Part shown: piece by piece, positions 10,199 through 50,374 of the stretch | Layout of the letters: every line of letters begins with the position of its first letter | How positions within the stretch are numbered: the stretch's first letter is position 1 | Assembly: GCA_002719675.1 (NCBI GenBank) | Contig: PBID01000003.1 | Span: 1 to 64,000 of the forward strand | Length of the DNA: 64,000 bases | Source: Chloroflexota bacterium | GTDB taxonomy: Bacteria > Chloroflexota > Dehalococcoidia > Lucifugimonadales > GCA-2719675 | Reading direction: 5' to 3' | Position numbers and translations under genes: made by a program | The notes under the pieces: model-generated | Database searches by the model: none | Told to the model about the DNA's origin: nothing | The model's input: only the letters and a program-made list of their open reading frames with translations

Positions 10199-11671
10199 AT
10201 GTCTAGCAATTTTGCAATCGTTACTACTGCACTTGTGTCAATTATATTTGCATCTATTGGAATATTATATTCAAAAAGAAAAAATTTCAATATCGAAGAT
10301 TTTTTAGTTGCAAGAGGTTCTACAAGTAGCTCTGTCACAACTGCAACAATTTCAGCTTCAGTAATCGGCGCATGGGTATTATTTAGCCCAGCTGAAGCAG
10401 GTACATGGGCTGGACTTCCAAGTTTGATAGGTTATGCAATTGGTCAAGCTTCCCCATTAATCTGTTTCGCTATTATAGGACCAAAACTAAAGTCTCTAAT
10501 ACCTAATGGACATTCTATTATCGAATATGCTTGGCATAGATATGGTAAATTCACTCATTTGATATGCATTCTAGTAACAATATCCTATTTATTTGTATTT
10601 CTTACAGCTGAATTAACTGCAATTTCATCAGCATTGAAAGAAATTTCAGATGTACCTCTAATTATCACCGCAATAGTGATCGGTGGTTTCACAGCTATAT
10701 ATACTGCATATGGAGGAATGAGAGCATCTATCATTACAGACTCAATCCAATTTACGTTAATTGTCCCTCTCGTTGTAATCGTTTTCATTGCAATATTGTC
10801 AAACATTGGAGGAATAACAAGTTCTATTAATATCATCACTGAAAATCGTCCTGAATTATTATCTTTATCTCACAAGCCAGGAATAGAATTTGGAATTACA
10901 TTAATATTTGCTGTTTTTGCAGCAAATATGTTCCATCAGGGATTTTGGCAAAGAATATACTCTGCGAAAAATAATCGATCAATAAAATTTGGATTTGGAT
11001 CTAGCGCAATAATTGTTATTCCAATAATTTTAATGACTGGGTTAATTGGAATAATAGCGTCAGGTAAAGGTACAGAAGGAAATCCATCTGTAGCCTTCTT
11101 CAATTTAAGCAAAGAAATCTTGCCTGAAGGTTTCATTATGGTATTACTAATTCTAGCGATTGCGTTAGTTATGAGTAGCCTAGATACTTTGTTAAACGGA
11201 ATTACTAGTGCAATCACTACTGATCTTTCAAGAATCAGACCTCATCTAAAATCGAATGTTTTATTGAAATATGCACGTGCTGTTACTGTCACGTTAATGA
11301 TTCCTGCAATAATTATTGCTTCGCAGGGACATAGTGTACTATACCTATTTTTAATAGCAGATTTGATTTGTTCTGCAGCCGTAATACCTGTATTCTTTGG
11401 ATTGTATTCAAAAAAAATTACAGATAAATATGCAACTATTAGTTTTATAATCGGCCTAATAATAGGCACCGTTTTTTTTCCAACTCCAGCTGTAGGATAT
11501 AGTACAACTTGGCTTCCTGAAGCTATTCAAATTCCATTATCAGGTAAAATGTTGGTTAGTTTCAGCGTAGCGTTGGTTGTCTCTGGAATTACATGCTTGA
11601 TTTTGTCATCACAAAATCACAAAAATCAATATGACTTTGCTAAACTTAGTAAAAACATCAAAAAATTTTAG
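10199..11671 (+). CDS. thiV: Sodium:solute symporter, probable HMP/thiamin-precursor transporter
   Basis: A 490-residue integral membrane protein of the SSS family with about 13 predicted membrane segments. Family features include the early segment GAWVLFSPAEAGTWAG, ANMFHQGFWQRIYSAK and VMSSLDTLLNG. SSS proteins use Na+ to drive uptake of small solutes. The TPP riboswitch directly upstream and thiD 45 bp downstream point to a thiamin precursor, most likely the pyrimidine HMP. TPP-riboswitch-controlled SSS proteins in SAR11 bacteria are called ThiV and are proposed to carry HMP; I borrow that name by context, not by alignment. ATG start with GTTAGGA upstream. Confidence 0.8.
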   Translation: MSSNFAIVTTALVSIIFASIGILYSKRKNFNIEDFLVARGSTSSSVTTATISASVIGAWVLFSPAEAGTWAGLPSLIGYAIGQASPLICFAIIGPKLKSLIPNGHSIIEYAWHRYGKFTHLICILVTISYLFVFLTAELTAISSALKEISDVPLIITAIVIGGFTAIYTAYGGMRASIITDSIQFTLIVPLVVIVFIAILSNIGGITSSINIITENRPELLSLSHKPGIEFGITLIFAVFAANMFHQGFWQRIYSAKNNRSIKFGFGSSAIIVIPIILMTGLIGIIASGKGTEGNPSVAFFNLSKEILPEGFIMVLLILAIALVMSSLDTLLNGITSAITTDLSRIRPHLKSNVLLKYARAVTVTLMIPAIIIASQGHSVLYLFLIADLICSAAVIPVFFGLYSKKITDKYATISFIIGLIIGTVFFPTPAVGYSTTWLPEAIQIPLSGKMLVSFSVALVVSGITCLILSSQNHKNQYDFAKLSKNIKKF

Positions 11672-42187: not shown

Positions 42188-42313
42188 TATATTCCAAGAT
42201 CATATCTAGAAGATATTCTAAAAAGCTGAATTTGAAAATAGTTGAATTATTAAAAAATATTCTATAAAATTTAAACGTTACATAAGATTATTGGTATTTC
42301 CTTTTAAGTCAGT

Positions 42314-42390
42314 TCTGTGAAACAGACAAGGGGCTACGAACAAAGATTCGTTGATGATGGTTGTTCCCCCCTTGCAGGGGGTTTTTTTTT
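42314..42390 (+). promoter_or_regulatory. pyr operon attenuator with overlapping ribosome-binding site
   Basis: A rho-independent terminator is formed by CCCCC (42367-42371), loop TTGCA and GGGGG (42377-42381), followed by nine T (42382-42390). Upstream, CAAGGGG (42327-42333) is exactly complementary to CCCCTTG (42368-42374), and GAACAA (42338-42343) to TTGTTC (42361-42366), so an alternative long stem excludes the terminator. A further small hairpin, TCTGT-GAA-ACAGA, lies at 42314-42326. The AGGGGG of the terminator is also the Shine-Dalgarno of pyrR (TTG 42389). This is the expected layout for PyrR/UMP-type attenuation, although I do not see the Bacillus PyrR-binding consensus. Confidence 0.8.
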
Positions 42391-42958
42391 GACAAAAAAT
42401 TTAGAACCAAAAAAAATATTTGATTCTGAACAAATACATAGATCATTAAAAAGAATTTCACATGAAATTCTTGAAAAAAATCATGGTGCCAATAAAATAT
42501 TACTACTAGGCATACATACTAGAGGTTTTCCTTTAGCAAATCGAATTTCTAAATTAATTTGTCAAACAGAAGGAATAACTGTACCTTGTGTTCCTTTAGG
42601 AATAAACCAATATAGAGACGATATTATTCCACCTAAACCTCGTAATAAAACTCCTTTAAAAAACACACCACAGGTCAAAATTGAAGATAAAACTATAATT
42701 TTAGTAGATGACGTTTTATATACGGGAAGAAGTATACGAGCTGCAATGGACGCAATTACTGATTCAGGAAGACCAAGTAAAATTCAACTTGCCGTTCTCG
42801 TAGACAGAGGCCATAGAGAATATCCAATTCGACCTGATTATGTCGGTAAAAATATCCCCACCAGTCAAAATGAAAAAGTCCAAGTGTTATTGAAAGAAAC
42901 AGATGGTATAGATGAAATATTAATAAGTCATCAGGAAAATAAAATTGAAAAACATTAA
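42389..42958 (+). CDS. pyrR: PyrR bifunctional regulator/uracil phosphoribosyltransferase
   Basis: PyrR binds pyr mRNA in response to UMP/UTP and has uracil phosphoribosyltransferase activity. The start is set at TTG 42389 because AGGGGG lies seven bases upstream and the preceding in-frame codons (from GTG 42317) are the attenuator itself. The 189-residue protein has LLGIHTRGFPLANRI and the PRPP-binding loop IILVDDVLYTGRSIRAAMDA, followed by LVDRGHREYPIRPDYVGKN, all typical of PyrR. First gene of the pyr operon; pyrB overlaps its end by 14 bases. Confidence 0.94.
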   Translation: MTKNLEPKKIFDSEQIHRSLKRISHEILEKNHGANKILLLGIHTRGFPLANRISKLICQTEGITVPCVPLGINQYRDDIIPPKPRNKTPLKNTPQVKIEDKTIILVDDVLYTGRSIRAAMDAITDSGRPSKIQLAVLVDRGHREYPIRPDYVGKNIPTSQNEKVQVLLKETDGIDEILISHQENKIEKH

Positions 42959-43889
42959 TCAAAATTTACTAGATTTAGATTTATTATCTTCAAAAGAAAT
43001 TGAAGAAATATTGAAGTCTGCTCAAAAAATGGAAGGTATATTTTATAAAAACTCCAAAAATAAACCTTTAATGCTTAATAAAACAATTGCTGGTCTATTT
43101 TTTGAACCAAGCACCAGGACCAGAATTTCATTTGAACATGCAAGTAATTTATTGGGAATAAAATATATTGATTTATCTCTAAATGAAAGCAGTATTAAAA
43201 AAGGTGAATCTTTACTTAACACATCACTAACATTACAAGCAATGAAAGTTGACGGATTAATCCTTAGACATCCACACTCAGGGGCACCTTATTCCCTTCT
43301 TGGTCAAATCAATACCTCAATAATTAATGCAGGTGATGGAACACATGCTCATCCAAGCCAAGCATTAACAGATTTATATACAATTAAAAAACACTTTGGG
43401 CAAATTAAAGGACTAACGATCCTTATAGTTGGAGATATACTTTATAGTAGAGTAGCTAGATCAAATATCTTAGGTCTTTCCAAATTAGGTGCAATCATAA
43501 AAGTTTGTGCTCCGGCTACTTTATTACCTATATCACTCCTGAAAGATAATTCTTATCAATACAATGACGCATACTCAAAAATATCTGTTTATACCAATTT
43601 GGAAGAAGCAATTGTTAATTCAAACGTGGTAATGCCTCTTCGAATTCAAAAAGAAAGACAAATGAAAGGACATCTTCCATCTTTCTCCGAATATAATTCA
43701 ATGTATGGAATAAACAACAAAATACTAGAATTAGCTGAAAATGATGTAATGGTAATGCACCCAGGGCCTATGAACGAAGGTGTGGAAATTGACACCATTG
43801 TAGCTCATGGTAGCAAATCATTAATTGAAAAACAGGTAGAAAACGGTATATCCGTCAAAATGGCTATTTTGGACAAAATATTAAATTAA
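42945..43889 (+). CDS. pyrB: Aspartate carbamoyltransferase catalytic subunit
   Basis: PyrB condenses carbamoyl phosphate and aspartate, the first committed step of pyrimidine synthesis. The 314-residue protein has the carbamoyl-phosphate loop FFEPSTRTRISFE, the swinging loop region, NAGDGTHAHPSQALTDLYT and VMHPGPMNEGVEI. The start is TTG with AGGAA eight bases upstream, inside the end of pyrR. No regulatory subunit gene pyrI is present. Confidence 0.96.
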   Translation: MKNINQNLLDLDLLSSKEIEEILKSAQKMEGIFYKNSKNKPLMLNKTIAGLFFEPSTRTRISFEHASNLLGIKYIDLSLNESSIKKGESLLNTSLTLQAMKVDGLILRHPHSGAPYSLLGQINTSIINAGDGTHAHPSQALTDLYTIKKHFGQIKGLTILIVGDILYSRVARSNILGLSKLGAIIKVCAPATLLPISLLKDNSYQYNDAYSKISVYTNLEEAIVNSNVVMPLRIQKERQMKGHLPSFSEYNSMYGINNKILELAENDVMVMHPGPMNEGVEIDTIVAHGSKSLIEKQVENGISVKMAILDKILN

Positions 43890-43932: not shown

Positions 43933-45255
43933 ATGAAAAATATATTAATTACTGAAGGCAGAGTGATCGATTGCACTCAAAATTTAGATTCTACTATGGA
44001 TATTTTTATTTCTAATGGCAAGATAACAAAATTAGAACCAAAAATCACTGATTTTCCATCAGACACAATTATTGTTTCAGCAAAAAAAATGATAGTTTCT
44101 CCCGGGTTCATAGACATGCACTGCCACCTTCGAGAACCAGGATATACAAAAAAAGAAACCATTTATACTGCCACAAAATCGGCTGCCAAAGGAGGATTTA
44201 CAACAGTATGTGCAATGCCAAATACTGAACCCGCAATGGATAATCCAGAAACAATAGAGTTAGTCTTAGAAAAAGCGAAAACAAATGGTTTAATCAGAGT
44301 ATTGCCTATTGCAGCAGCTACTAAAAAACGTGAAGGTAATGAATTAACCAATATGCATGAACTATCAAGTTTAGGAGTCGTAGGATTTAGTGATGATGGT
44401 GATCCTATTTCAAACCCAAATATGATGAGGCAAGCTTTGTCATACTCTTTATCTACAAAACTTCCAATAATTAATCACTGCGAAGTAAAAGAACTCTCAA
44501 AAAACGGAATGATTAATGAAGGTCGAATATCTATGCTATTAGGCCTTACAGGTATCCCAAACTCCTCAGAAGATTCGATGGTAGCTCGAGATATTTCTTT
44601 AGCAGAAACTACAGGAGGGAAATTACACATAGCACATGCTAGCACATCAGGCACTATGGAATTGATAGCTCTAGCGAAAGACAAAGGATTAAATGTTACA
44701 TGTGAAGCTACTCCTCATCATTTAACATTAACAGATGAATTTATATTTAATAAATCAAAAAAAACAGATCCCAAAAATATTGTTTCTAATAACCCATATG
44801 ACACTAATATTAAAGTCGCACCTCCTCTAAGATCACAAAAAGATGTAGACTCTCTAGTTAAAGGTTTATTGAATGATACTATTGATGTCATTGCAACTGA
44901 CCATGCCCCTCACACAAATACCGATAAAAATTGTACATTTGAAGACGCTGCAAATGGAATCAGCAATTTAGAAACAGCCTTAGCATCCGTATTAAGTTTA
45001 TATCACTTTAAAAATGTACCTCTTAAAAAAATAGTAGAAAAACTCACATCTAGTCCTGCAAAATTAATTAACCGACCTGACCTAGGTTCTTTGAAGTTAA
45101 ACACAAATGCTGATATTACAATCTTTGACCCAGACTTTGAGTGGGTAATAAATTCAAATACATTCTCCTCTAAAGGTAAAAATACACCCCTGGAAGGAGA
45201 AAAAGTTCGAGGAAAAGTTTTTAAAACAATTTTTAAAGGTGAAATAATTGAATAA
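43933..45255 (+). CDS. pyrC: Dihydroorotase, type I
   Basis: PyrC cyclises carbamoyl aspartate to dihydroorotate. The 440-residue amidohydrolase has the metal-binding PGFIDMHCHLREPGYTKKE, the Asp-rich IDVIATDHAPHT near the end of the barrel and HIAHASTSGTME. It is an active form, with all zinc ligands in place. ATG start. carA overlaps its end by eight bases. Confidence 0.95.
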   Translation: MKNILITEGRVIDCTQNLDSTMDIFISNGKITKLEPKITDFPSDTIIVSAKKMIVSPGFIDMHCHLREPGYTKKETIYTATKSAAKGGFTTVCAMPNTEPAMDNPETIELVLEKAKTNGLIRVLPIAAATKKREGNELTNMHELSSLGVVGFSDDGDPISNPNMMRQALSYSLSTKLPIINHCEVKELSKNGMINEGRISMLLGLTGIPNSSEDSMVARDISLAETTGGKLHIAHASTSGTMELIALAKDKGLNVTCEATPHHLTLTDEFIFNKSKKTDPKNIVSNNPYDTNIKVAPPLRSQKDVDSLVKGLLNDTIDVIATDHAPHTNTDKNCTFEDAANGISNLETALASVLSLYHFKNVPLKKIVEKLTSSPAKLINRPDLGSLKLNTNADITIFDPDFEWVINSNTFSSKGKNTPLEGEKVRGKVFKTIFKGEIIE

Positions 45256-46351
45256 CACAATTTCAAATAATATAAATTTAATTTTGGAAGATGGATCAAT
45301 TTTTAAAGGCAAAGCATTTGGAAGTACATTGGAATCAATTGGAGAAGTAGTTTTTAACACATCTATGACAGGTTATCAAGAAATGTTAACAGATCCATCC
45401 TATTCAGGGCAAATAGTAATATCAACTTATCCCTTGATAGGAAACTATGGAATAAACAAAATAGACTTTGAATCTAAAAAAATTCAAGTTGCTGGATTTG
45501 TAATAAAAAATTTGTGTACTGAACCAAGTCATAATTCAAGTGAATTTACATTAAATGAGTTCCTCCAATCTCAATCAATTCCAGGTATATACGATGTAGA
45601 CACAAGAGCGCTTGCAAAAAAAATCCGTCAAAAAGGAGTCATGTCAGGAAAAATTTCAAAAGACAGTTCAGCTGATAATTTTTTCTCTGAATTAAAAAGT
45701 TCAACTCCATATAACCAAACAAATTTTGTTTACTCAACAAGCACTAAAAAAAATTATAATTGGCCTAGCAAAACTAACAAAACTCAACAAAGCCCCAAAA
45801 TAGTAGTAATGGATTTTGGCTTAAAATATAACATTCTCAGAATTTTAGAATCTAAAGGATGCGAAGTAACTGTTGTGCCAGCAAATTCTACGATAAAAAA
45901 AATACTTGATTTAAATCCAGATGGAATCGTGTTGTCCCCAGGCCCAGGGGACCCGTCTTTATTAGGTGATATTGTTGATGTTGTAAAACAACTTCCACCA
46001 AGATTACCTATTTTTGGAATTTGCCTAGGGAATCAAATATTAGCGCATGCTTTTGGTGCAAAAACATTTAAACTTAAGTTTGGACATAGAGGATCTAATC
46101 ATCCTGTTAAAGACTTAAAATCTAACACTGTTAGTATTACTTCTCAAAATCACGGATATTCTATCGATCCTGAGTCATTACCAACAGAATTAGAAATCAC
46201 ACATATTAATCTCAATGACGAGACAATTGAAGGAATACGTCACAAAACTCTACCAATAATGAGTATTCAATTTCACTCTGAAGCTTCTCCGGGGCCAAAA
46301 GACAATGAATATATCTTTGATGATTTTTTAAATTTAATTGAAAAAAAATAA
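45248..46351 (+). CDS. carA: Carbamoyl-phosphate synthase small subunit
   Basis: CarA is the glutamine amidotransferase that feeds ammonia to CarB. The 367-residue protein has the small-subunit N-terminal domain (ILEDGSIFKGKAFGS, MTGYQEMLTDPSYSGQI) and the class I amidotransferase domain with the catalytic Cys in PIFGICLGNQIL and His-Glu in IQFHSEASPGP. TTG start with AAAGGTG upstream, overlapping pyrC. Confidence 0.96.
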   Translation: MNNTISNNINLILEDGSIFKGKAFGSTLESIGEVVFNTSMTGYQEMLTDPSYSGQIVISTYPLIGNYGINKIDFESKKIQVAGFVIKNLCTEPSHNSSEFTLNEFLQSQSIPGIYDVDTRALAKKIRQKGVMSGKISKDSSADNFFSELKSSTPYNQTNFVYSTSTKKNYNWPSKTNKTQQSPKIVVMDFGLKYNILRILESKGCEVTVVPANSTIKKILDLNPDGIVLSPGPGDPSLLGDIVDVVKQLPPRLPIFGICLGNQILAHAFGAKTFKLKFGHRGSNHPVKDLKSNTVSITSQNHGYSIDPESLPTELEITHINLNDETIEGIRHKTLPIMSIQFHSEASPGPKDNEYIFDDFLNLIEKK

Positions 46352-46352
46352 A

Positions 46353-47072
46353 ATGCAAACTGCAAACAAAATATCAGCTATTTCTTTTGATGTTGATGAC
46401 ACATTATGGAATTTTTCAGATTCATCAGATTCAGCTCTTTTAGAAACAATAGATGTCCTTAACAAAAATCATAGAGGAACATCTATAAAATTAAATGTAA
46501 AAGAGTTACAGGACTTAAGAGATGAAACAGAAAGCCGTCTTGAAGGAATAATAGATGATTTAGACGAAATCCGTAAAGAATCTTTCAGAATGATTTTAAC
46601 TAAAAATGAAATTTCTAACGAATCACTTCTTTCGAAATTATATGGAGCATACACCTCGACCAAAAAAACCCTCACCAAACCTTACAAAGATGTAATTCCA
46701 TCTATCAAATTTTTAAAACCTTATTTTAAAATTGGGATTATTTCAAATGGTAATTGCTATCCCAAAGATCTTGGGATTGAAAATCTGATAGATTTTTCAA
46801 TTTATAGCCAGCAGCTCTCTGGAATCAAAAAACCTGATCCTAAAATTTTCCAAATAGCATCTGAAAAAATCAATTGTTCTCCAAAGCAAATTTTACATAT
46901 CGGGGATTCATATGAGAATGACTATGTTGGAGCTAAAAATTCAGGTTTCCAAAGCATCTTAATTGATCGAAAAAATTCCTTTCCAAAATCAAAATTTTCA
47001 AACATAAATTTAATCAATTCATTATTCGAAATCACTAAAACTCAATATTTCATAGAAAGAAAATTACAATAA
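46353..47072 (+). CDS. HAD-superfamily hydrolase inside the car genes
   Basis: A 239-residue HAD subfamily IA phosphatase of the YjjG-like type. Motif I is FDVDDTLWNF, motif II is IISNGN, motif III is the Lys in KKPDPKIF and motif IV is HIGDSYENDYVGAK. A four-helix cap lies between motifs I and II. I chose the ATG at 46353, one base after the carA stop; an in-frame TTG at 46338 is possible. Its place between carA and carB suggests a role in nucleotide metabolism, for example a pyrimidine monophosphate phosphatase, but this is inference. Confidence 0.85.
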   Translation: MQTANKISAISFDVDDTLWNFSDSSDSALLETIDVLNKNHRGTSIKLNVKELQDLRDETESRLEGIIDDLDEIRKESFRMILTKNEISNESLLSKLYGAYTSTKKTLTKPYKDVIPSIKFLKPYFKIGIISNGNCYPKDLGIENLIDFSIYSQQLSGIKKPDPKIFQIASEKINCSPKQILHIGDSYENDYVGAKNSGFQSILIDRKNSFPKSKFSNINLINSLFEITKTQYFIERKLQ

Positions 47073-47074
47073 AA

Positions 47075-50000
47075 ATGTCAAAGAAAATTTCAAAAATACT
47101 AGTAATTGGTTCTGGTCCAATCATTATTGGTCAAGCTGCCGAATTTGACTATGCTGGAACCCAAGCCTGTGCTTCATTAAAAGAAGAAGGTATATATACG
47201 ATTTTGGTAAATTCAAATCCAGCAACAATTATGACAGATCAAAATATTGCTGATTCAGTATACATAGAGCCTTTAACAAAAAATGTTTTAAGCCGAATAA
47301 TTGAAGCAGAAAAACCCGATGGATTACTAGCCACTTTAGGAGGACAAACTGGGCTAAATTTAGCTGTAGAATTATCTCACTCAGGAATTCTTGAAAAATT
47401 CAACGTTGATTTATTAGGAACTCCTTTATCTTCTATAGAAACAGCTGAAGATAGAGAAAAATTTAACAATCTTTTATCAAGTATTGATGAACCTACAATA
47501 CCAAGCCTTACAGCAAATTCATTTGATGAAGCAATGTCCCATCTCAACAAAATGAAACTTCCCCTTGTTATAAGGCCAGCTTATACCTTAGGTGGTACTG
47601 GTGGTGGAATTGCAAATTCGCTAGAACAATTCAAACAAATAGTATCTGGTGGTGTTGATTCTAGCCCAATAAACCAAGTCTTAATTGAACAATCTCTAGA
47701 AGGCTGGAAAGAAATTGAATATGAAGTCATGCGAGATTCAAAAGATAATTGTATAACCATTTGTAATATGGAAAATATTGATGCCATGGGGGTTCATACA
47801 GGAGATAGTATTGTTGTTGCTCCAAGTCAAACATTAACAGACAAAGAATATCAAATGCTTCGGACAGCAAGTCTAAAAATCATTAGATCTTTAGGAATAG
47901 AAGGCGGATGTAATATTCAATTTGCAATTCCTCCAAGCAATATTTCATATTCAAAAGAAAATACATCTCAAAGTCCTTACTATGTCATTGAAGTTAACCC
48001 CAGAGTTAGTAGAAGCTCAGCTTTAGCAAGTAAAGCTACTGGATATCCCATAGCTAGAGTTGCGTCAAAAATCGCTATTGGTAAAACATTACCTGAAATT
48101 TACAACGCAATAACAAAAAAAACTGTAGCCTCTTTTGAGCCTGCACTAGATTACTGTGTTGTGAAAATTCCTCGATGGCCTTTCGATAAATTTCCTTCAG
48201 GAGATAAAACTCTTGGTACACAAATGAAAGCTACCGGCGAAGTCATGGCTATTGGGCGATCTTTTGAATCAGCTTTTCAAAAAGCAATTCGTTCCTTGGA
48301 AATCACCGGAAGATCTTATCTATGGGAAAAAGATACTTGGAATTCTGAAAATTTAAACAAGGATCTCACTCCAAATGACGATAGACTCTGGGCCATTTTT
48401 TCAGCATTAAGAAAAGGCATTAGCCCAGATGATTTGTCAAAAAAGACAATGGTAGATCCTTGGTTTACCCGTTCATTTTCAAAAATGGTTGAAATGGAAA
48501 AAATGATATCAAATTTCAAAGGATGGAAAATTACAAATTTATCTAAAGAAATATTACTGGAAGCAAAAAAACTTGGATTTTCAGATAATGTTATAGCCTC
48601 ATTAACTAACTTTTCAAGTAAAGAAATTAGAAATAAAAGAAAAGAGCTTGAAATAATACCTGTGTATAAAATGGTAGACACTTGCGCTGCTGAATTTGAA
48701 GCACAAACTCCTTATTTCTACAGTACTTTCGAAGATGAGAATGAAGCATATCCTATAAAAGGTGATAAATCTATTGTGATTGGGAGCGGGCCAATTAGAA
48801 TAGGACAAGGAATTGAATTCGACTATTGTTCAGTCCATGCTGCATGGGCGCTTCAAAAATCAAATTACAAAAGCGTAATTGTGAATTCCAATCCTGAAAC
48901 TGTTTCCACAGATTTTGACACTAGTGACAGATTATATTTCGAACCATTAGATGAAGAAAGTATTCTAGATATAATTGAAAACGAAACCATCAATAATGAT
49001 CCTCCTCATTCCGTTTGTCAATTTGGCGGACAAACAGCTATAAATATTTCGCAAAAATTAGACCAACATAAGCTTCCGATTCTAGGAACTTCTGCAGAAG
49101 TAATAAATATTTGCTCAGACCGTGATTTGTTTGAAAAATTTCTCAAAACAATCAACGTGCCAAATCCACCAGGTGCAGCCGTAACAACTACAAAAAAAGC
49201 AATTGAAATTGCAAACCAAATTGGATACCCAGTCCTTGTTAGGCCAAGCTATGTTTTAGGAGGCAGGGCTATGGAAATTGTTGAAAATGAAAGTGAATTA
49301 AAAAAATTTGCAGATATAGCCATAGAAGCAGGTGAAGGTCATACAGTCTTAATAGATAAGTATTTCGAAGGAACTGAAATTGAAGTGGATGCCGTATGTG
49401 ATGGAGATACTGTCATGATTCCCGGAATAATGGAACATATAGAAAGAGCTGGAGTTCATAGTGGAGACTCAATTGCAGTTTACCCTGAAATATCTCTATC
49501 AGAAAACGAAGTATCAAAAGTTGTTGAATACACTAAAAAAATTGGCAAATCTTTACAGTTAAAAGGATTGATAAACATTCAATATGTTTTGATCAGAGAT
49601 GATGATAAAAGTTCAACTAAATCCAAAAGAACCGGTAAAATTTATGTCTTAGAAGTTAATCCAAGATCAAGTCGAACTATTCCATTTATTTCAAAAGTTA
49701 CCGGAATTCCAATGGTCCAACTTGCTATAGATTCCATGGTTGGTATTACTTTAAAAAGCCAAGGATATTCTGATGGACTAGCAAAAAATCGAAAAAAACA
49801 TTTAACCGGAATAAAAGCACCTGTATTTTCTATGTCTAAACTCATAGGGGTTGAGACTCACCTTGGACCAGAAATGAAATCAACCGGAGAAGTGATGGGG
49901 ATTGATTATAAATTTGAAGGTGCTTTGAATAAGGCGCTTATATCATCAGGAATGACTATACCTGCAAAAGGGAAAATATTAATTAGTGTAGCTGACCACC

Positions 50001-50374
50001 ACAAGCCTGAGATAATAGATATGATTAAAGAATTAAATTCACATCAATATTCATTTTATGCTACTAAAGGGACCGCAAAGTTAATAAGAGATATAGGTTT
50101 AGACGTAGAAACTGTCAATAGAATTGGAACAGGTTATCCTGATATGTTAGATTTAATTTTGAACGATACAATTACCGCTGTAATCAATACTGTAACAGGT
50201 GAAAAGAAAATACTTGAAGACAGTTTTAAAATCCGAAGAGCAGCTTCAGAAAAAAGAATACCTTGCTTTACTTCAATTGACACAGCAATAATTGCTACAA
50301 AAAACATTACTTTCCAAACAATGCCTTATAAAATATTACCTCAACACAAGTATTATGAGCAGAAACATTTATAG
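47075..50374 (+). CDS. carB: Carbamoyl-phosphate synthase large subunit
   Basis: CarB makes carbamoyl phosphate from bicarbonate, ammonia and two ATP, for pyrimidine and arginine synthesis. The 1099-residue protein has both ATP-grasp halves: KILVIGSGPIIIGQAAEFDY near residue 6 with LVIRPAYTLGGTGGGI, and SIVIGSGPIRIGQGIEFDY near 568 with VLVRPSYVLGGRAMEI. The C-terminal allosteric MGS-like domain (about 960-1085) has GKILISVADHHKPEII and GYPDMLDLI. A small Ser/Lys-rich insert (DDDKSSTKSKRTGK) lies near residue 850. ATG start, two bases after the HAD gene. Confidence 0.97.
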   Translation: MSKKISKILVIGSGPIIIGQAAEFDYAGTQACASLKEEGIYTILVNSNPATIMTDQNIADSVYIEPLTKNVLSRIIEAEKPDGLLATLGGQTGLNLAVELSHSGILEKFNVDLLGTPLSSIETAEDREKFNNLLSSIDEPTIPSLTANSFDEAMSHLNKMKLPLVIRPAYTLGGTGGGIANSLEQFKQIVSGGVDSSPINQVLIEQSLEGWKEIEYEVMRDSKDNCITICNMENIDAMGVHTGDSIVVAPSQTLTDKEYQMLRTASLKIIRSLGIEGGCNIQFAIPPSNISYSKENTSQSPYYVIEVNPRVSRSSALASKATGYPIARVASKIAIGKTLPEIYNAITKKTVASFEPALDYCVVKIPRWPFDKFPSGDKTLGTQMKATGEVMAIGRSFESAFQKAIRSLEITGRSYLWEKDTWNSENLNKDLTPNDDRLWAIFSALRKGISPDDLSKKTMVDPWFTRSFSKMVEMEKMISNFKGWKITNLSKEILLEAKKLGFSDNVIASLTNFSSKEIRNKRKELEIIPVYKMVDTCAAEFEAQTPYFYSTFEDENEAYPIKGDKSIVIGSGPIRIGQGIEFDYCSVHAAWALQKSNYKSVIVNSNPETVSTDFDTSDRLYFEPLDEESILDIIENETINNDPPHSVCQFGGQTAINISQKLDQHKLPILGTSAEVINICSDRDLFEKFLKTINVPNPPGAAVTTTKKAIEIANQIGYPVLVRPSYVLGGRAMEIVENESELKKFADIAIEAGEGHTVLIDKYFEGTEIEVDAVCDGDTVMIPGIMEHIERAGVHSGDSIAVYPEISLSENEVSKVVEYTKKIGKSLQLKGLINIQYVLIRDDDKSSTKSKRTGKIYVLEVNPRSSRTIPFISKVTGIPMVQLAIDSMVGITLKSQGYSDGLAKNRKKHLTGIKAPVFSMSKLIGVETHLGPEMKSTGEVMGIDYKFEGALNKALISSGMTIPAKGKILISVADHHKPEIIDMIKELNSHQYSFYATKGTAKLIRDIGLDVETVNRIGTGYPDMLDLILNDTITAVINTVTGEKKILEDSFKIRRAASEKRIPCFTSIDTAIIATKNITFQTMPYKILPQHKYYEQKHL

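Follow-up and report, generated by a model that had tools for sequence, protein, structure and literature searches.

What controls the pyr operon in a 64,000-nucleotide stretch of a Chloroflexota genome, that of a marine SAR202 bacterium (the window; positions 1 to 64,000 of contig PBID01000003.1, order Lucifugimonadales, class Dehalococcoidia)? An initial annotation described a compact attenuator beginning at 42314, directly before pyrR, and suggested that its ligand or protein may differ from the PyrR of Bacillus. We conclude, with a probability of about 0.9, that the leader is a PyrR attenuator of the pyrR-pyrBC-carA-HAD-carB operon, made of three competing hairpins (Table 1). The hairpin anatomy, the match to Rfam family RF00515, the gene context and leaders with covariation in 45 of 59 genomes of the order together lead to this reading.

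Table 1. Features of the pyr leader and operon, in window positions.
Feature	Position	Strand	Basis or remark
Probable promoter TTGAAT-17-TAAAAT (TATAAA overlaps)	42242..42270	+	consensus scan; predicted RNA start ~42277
PyrR-binding loop (anti-antiterminator)	42298..42333	+	RF00515 alignment, pairs checked in sequence, covariation
Hairpin pairs CCUU/AAGG, GUC/GAC, GUU/AAC; A.A mismatch	CCUU 42300-42303, AAGG 42328-42331; A.A 42311/42324		
5' internal bulge UUAA	42304-42307	+	between CCUU/AAGG and GUC/GAC
Hexaloop CUGUGA (consensus CNGNGA)	42315..42320	+	kept in 46/46 leaders analysed
Antiterminator CAAGGGG/CCCCUUG (7 bp) and GAACAA/UUGUUC (6 bp)	42327..42374	+	exact complements
Intrinsic terminator CCCCCU/AGGGGG, 3-nt loop UGC, nine U	42367..42390	+	terminator scan, sequence
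AGGGGG, terminator 3' arm and likely pyrR Shine-Dalgarno	42376..42381	+	sequence, same layout in related leaders; TTG 7 nt later
pyrR (TTG start), 189 aa, bifunctional PyrR regulator/uracil phosphoribosyltransferase	42389..42958	+	NCBIfam NF003549, 226.4 bits, cut-off 138
pyrB, aspartate carbamoyltransferase	42945..43889	+	NF002032, 351.8 bits; ORF overlaps pyrR
pyrC-like dihydroorotase	43933..45255	+	Pfam PF01979, PF12890
carA, carbamoyl-phosphate synthase small chain	45248..46351	+	PF00988, PF00117
HAD-family hydrolase, between carA and carB	46338..47072	+	PF00702; TIGR02254 YjjG 80.8 bits, below cut-off 159.9
carB, carbamoyl-phosphate synthase large chain	47075..50374	+	PF02786, PF02787

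As is characteristic of RF00515, the leader stands directly upstream of pyrR-pyrB-pyrC-carA-HAD-carB in a genome that encodes PyrR. The PyrR sequence is related to the solved PyrR structures PDB 1a3c, 1non and 1ufr, and among named relatives the nearest is a SAR202 MAG (L005), with 80% PyrR identity. Matches of the HAD hydrolase include pyrimidine-nucleotidase models (YjjG), under cut-off, and the protein may take part in pyrimidine nucleotide clean-up. Elsewhere in the window, a TPP riboswitch (RF00059, 10029-10136, + strand, 58 bits, above cut-off) precedes a 490-aa ORF (10199-11671, + strand) that by eye has the look of a sodium:solute symporter, and is a candidate transporter of thiamine or a thiamine precursor.

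Read from 42298 to 42333, the binding hairpin runs UUCCUU-UUAA-GUC-A-GUU-[CUGUGA]-AAC-A-GAC-AAGGGG. Its CNGNGA hexaloop is intact and closed by U-A, U-A and G-C pairs, and the bulge on the 5' side and the lower stem are those of RF00515. The remark in the initial annotation that the Bacillus PyrR-binding consensus is absent holds for the literal letters, as AGUUCUGUGAAACA agrees with ARUCCNGNGAGGYU at 8 of the 12 specified letters, but not for the hairpin, which is present with CNGNGA and a compensated stem. Three of the four departures retain pairing (C-G and U-G become U-A and U-A), and the literal consensus is missing because UC/GG beside the loop has been swapped for compensatory UU/AA. 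An A.A mismatch, common to both members of the genus, takes the place of an A-U pair. The same positions also vary, with pairing kept, in other leaders, so membership of the family in this clade does not hang on the consensus letters. The unmatched letters and the mismatch could reduce the affinity of the hairpin for PyrR. Since the interval first proposed began inside this hairpin, the part that marks a PyrR switch was lost from it.

RF00515 (PyrR) aligns over its full length at 42296-42390 with 41.2 bits (E=1.6e-4 in a 321-base search), the single match at E<=0.001 in the whole 1.4-Mb genome. The leader is absent from a standard Rfam scan because this score does not reach the curators' gathering score of 54, which is an Rfam library cut-off and not a biological feature; a scan at that threshold misses the element and a restricted E-value search recovers it. 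The same is true of 30 of the 45 RF00515-positive genomes of the order, which likewise score under the gathering value. The mechanism is ordinary for a PyrR attenuator, and the element has diverged past the standard Rfam scan.

Pairing in related leaders, which the initial annotation had offered as a check, is conserved and shows strong covariation. RF00515 matches occur in the 45 genomes of the order (this one included) and in 102 of 148 of the class. CNGNGA is found in 46 of 46 aligned loops, and the loop C, G, G and A are invariant across 50 distinct hairpins. Among these hairpins, mostly gathered with an Rfam model that favours paired stems and so inflates pairing and covariation figures, 92.3% of cells pair versus 85.3% in shuffles, and 4 pairs have changed on both sides versus 1.4. 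In the same 50 hairpins the six-pair stem outscores every one of 500 shuffles, whichever measure is used, as well as all slid versions of itself; the loop-closing pair is C-G in 43, A-U in 4 and U-A in 3, and is unpaired in none. Six of seven pyrR leaders that lack an Rfam match carry CNGNGA with 4/4 paired flanks that differ in their letters (for example AGUA/UACU, GAUA/UAUC and GGUU/AACC), and these six are free of the model bias, save for the 3-of-4 pairing demanded by the script. Related genomes also have the same element with the full consensus ahead of pyrR.

Variants occur within the order. In L104 (genome G028), a PyrR-type hairpin GGUU[CAGAGA]AACC lies ~58 nt upstream of the pyrR match and is immediately followed by AAAGGAAG, with no obvious terminator; its arrangement possibly reflects direct translational control by PyrR. 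Two RF00515 elements are present in some genomes, namely L098 (G029) and L057/L069 (G042); the extra element probably puts a second pyr transcript, or another copy of pyrR, under this control too.

Downstream of the binding loop, the architecture agrees with the initial annotation. CAAGGGG (42327-42333) and CCCCTTG (42368-42374), like GAACAA (42338-42343) and TTGTTC (42361-42366), are exact complements and are conserved, and the GC terminator, CCCCCUUGCAGGGGG at 42367-42381, forms five G-C pairs and one U-A pair, a short stem of 6 bp, before nine U at 42382-42390. A terminator scan finds this site, versus 0.1 expected in shuffles. The 3' strand of the PyrR hairpin is the 5' strand of the antiterminator (42327-42333 being common to both), and 42367-42374 is common to antiterminator and terminator, so the structures exclude one another, as in RF00515 attenuators. 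When ever longer transcripts are folded, the three states appear one after another: the PyrR hairpin to ~42367, the antiterminator at 42370-42379, and the PyrR hairpin plus terminator from 42382. The two full-length states, at -26.2 and -28.0 kcal/mol, lie ~2 kcal/mol apart, a difference that protein binding could outweigh.

The 131-nt stretch as a whole has an ordinary fold stability (z +0.32 versus shuffles), as expected of a bistable switch in AT-rich sequence. The antiterminator domain, which begins with the PyrR-hairpin 3' strand and ends with the terminator 5' arm, is more stable than its shuffles, with a mean z of -2.1 over 45 leaders of the order and -0.98 in this leader alone. Most leaders of the order share the same outer antiterminator helix. 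When antiterminator arms are swapped between genomes, 29 of 5000 permutations do as well, which is modest support, explained by class-wide conservation of the arms; this leader by itself holds an unremarkable rank of 16 of 45. The distal helix is GAUUAA/UUGAUC in the sister species versus GAACAA/UUGUUC here, a compensated change of A-U to U-A and C-G to U-G in a comparison of two genomes.

How would such a leader work? An RNA 5' end downstream of 42333 is unlikely given the promoter-like TTGAAT-17-TAAAAT upstream, both hexamers of which are largely retained in the sister species. Anatomy, conservation, covariation, mutual exclusion and gene context form the basis of the reading; the binding step, in which PyrR depends on UMP/UTP, is taken from what is established about PyrR. 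When UMP/UTP is abundant, PyrR with its nucleotide bound would grip the hairpin at 42300-42331, the anti-antiterminator, and lock away CAAGGGG, so that no antiterminator would arise, the terminator at 42367-42381 would form and polymerase would halt in the nine U. When pyrimidines are scarce, PyrR would release, CAAGGGG would pair with CCCCUUG, the terminator would be prevented and the operon would be transcribed. The OFF fold would also conceal the pyrR Shine-Dalgarno in any read-through RNA, and the ON fold would free it. A single fold thus probably governs termination together with the translation of pyrR. We infer, with somewhat more confidence than doubt, that the OFF fold does block translation.

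The translational part of this model turns on the terminator 3' arm. AGGGGG is the sole Shine-Dalgarno-like stretch ahead of TTG 42389, and TTG 42389-42391 is the sole in-frame start that fits the PyrR N-terminus; as first noted, the last two of the nine U supply its first two bases. A search of this draft genome for the exact 16S tail pattern, the 3' end with the anti-Shine-Dalgarno, gave no match. The proposal that the arm doubles as the pyrR Shine-Dalgarno gains support from related leaders, where the layout recurs, and the arm probably serves as the ribosome site. Of 46 leaders of the order, 36 have a start codon 3-10 nt past the arm that is in frame with pyrR (11 and 8 in the other frames). 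For the rest of the class the figure is 24 of 26 further leaders (2 and 2 in the other frames), and the start is mostly an ATG exactly 7 nt after GAGG. A Shine-Dalgarno within the terminator and a start 3-10 nt later are found in 27 of 45 leaders of the order and 28 of 32 from elsewhere in the class. Other Chloroflexota show this layout in 2 of 10 leaders, and in 7 of the 10 the only Shine-Dalgarno and start are separate and lie downstream. It is Shine-Dalgarno matching that separates the class from other Chloroflexota; the 9 of 11 near starts counted outside the class without this requirement are misleading, because TTG and GTG arise easily after a U run. The recurrence across order and class makes the overlap a clade-level layout and not a quirk of this compact leader. 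The built-in Shine-Dalgarno plausibly defines a dual-output variant typical of the class.

Could the leader be something other than a PyrR attenuator? The suggestion that a different ligand or protein acts on this leader, as a riboswitch or attenuator, was prompted by the lack of the literal Bacillus consensus, which is absent in this genus, but it is very improbable: CNGNGA is kept, stem changes are compensated, related genomes carry the full-consensus element before pyrR, no other Rfam family comes close (the next best at the leader has E=0.95), and the protein encoded downstream is an ordinary PyrR. We give still less credence to translation-coupled attenuation through a leader peptide starting at GTG 42317. 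The frame is open from there into pyrR, with which it is in frame, but GAG replaces GTG in the sister species, no Shine-Dalgarno precedes it, no stop codon ends the frame and conserved RNA pairing occupies the stretch; this candidate was rejected because GTG 42317 is not kept.

The more serious competitor accepts PyrR and disputes only the second output: the leader would be a plain transcription attenuator in which the Shine-Dalgarno overlap is compaction. The overlap might have no translational effect because read-through RNAs are already in the antiterminator fold, and termination control by PyrR alone suffices in Bacillus (PMC7430163). The genome is small (1.4 Mb) with short gaps, and in part of the order's leaders no in-frame start lies close to the arm. 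Yet genomes of the order as large as 3 Mb show the overlap too, leaders across the class hold the start at a tightly limited distance from the arm (mostly exactly 7 nt), and most other Chloroflexota use a separate site. We regard the plain attenuator as a real but lesser prospect, perhaps one chance in three. Two-output PyrR attenuators across Dehalococcoidia, in which the arm is a Shine-Dalgarno ~7 nt from the start and PyrR governs its own translation as well as transcription of the operon, in contrast to most other Chloroflexota examined, where the ribosome site is separate, are narrowly favoured.

The findings place PyrR attenuation in uncultured marine SAR202 bacteria and much of Dehalococcoidia. 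They show how far the stem of the binding hairpin can diverge under an unchanged loop, which could guide a broader Rfam model, and that in AT-rich genomes a real element can go unnoticed behind an Rfam score below threshold. The leader is also a simple case for asking whether one hairpin steers termination and translation together. A dual platform for PyrR is not described in the literature searched, which is weak evidence of novelty as the primary PyrR papers lay outside that search.

The parallels with known systems are close. PyrR attenuation has been worked out mechanistically in B. subtilis (PMC7430163). Like the Bacillus pyr attenuators of RF00515, the leader has the CNGNGA hexaloop, a 5' internal bulge and a lower CCUU/AAGG helix, shares the 3' strand of its hairpin with the antiterminator, and carries a downstream terminator in a position before pyrR and the pyr operon. 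It differs from RF00515 in having UU/AA in place of UC/GG beside the loop and an A.A mismatch in place of one A-U pair, in being shorter (95 nt versus 115 model positions), and in a terminator arm that is also the likely pyrR Shine-Dalgarno. In Mycobacterium smegmatis, in work credited to Fields and Switzer in 2007, PyrR reportedly represses translation through a binding loop that covers the ribosome site, with no terminator. In both systems PyrR would decide whether the pyrR ribosome site is accessible, whereas here there is a full terminator with nine U. Barrick and Breaker (2007) described riboswitches with a ribosome site in the 3' side of the regulated terminator as dual transcription/translation platforms (PMC2258182). 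The present leader resembles these in placing the ribosome site in the terminator 3' side, so that both outputs could be attenuated, but those riboswitches sense metabolites directly, and the sensor here is a protein, PyrR.
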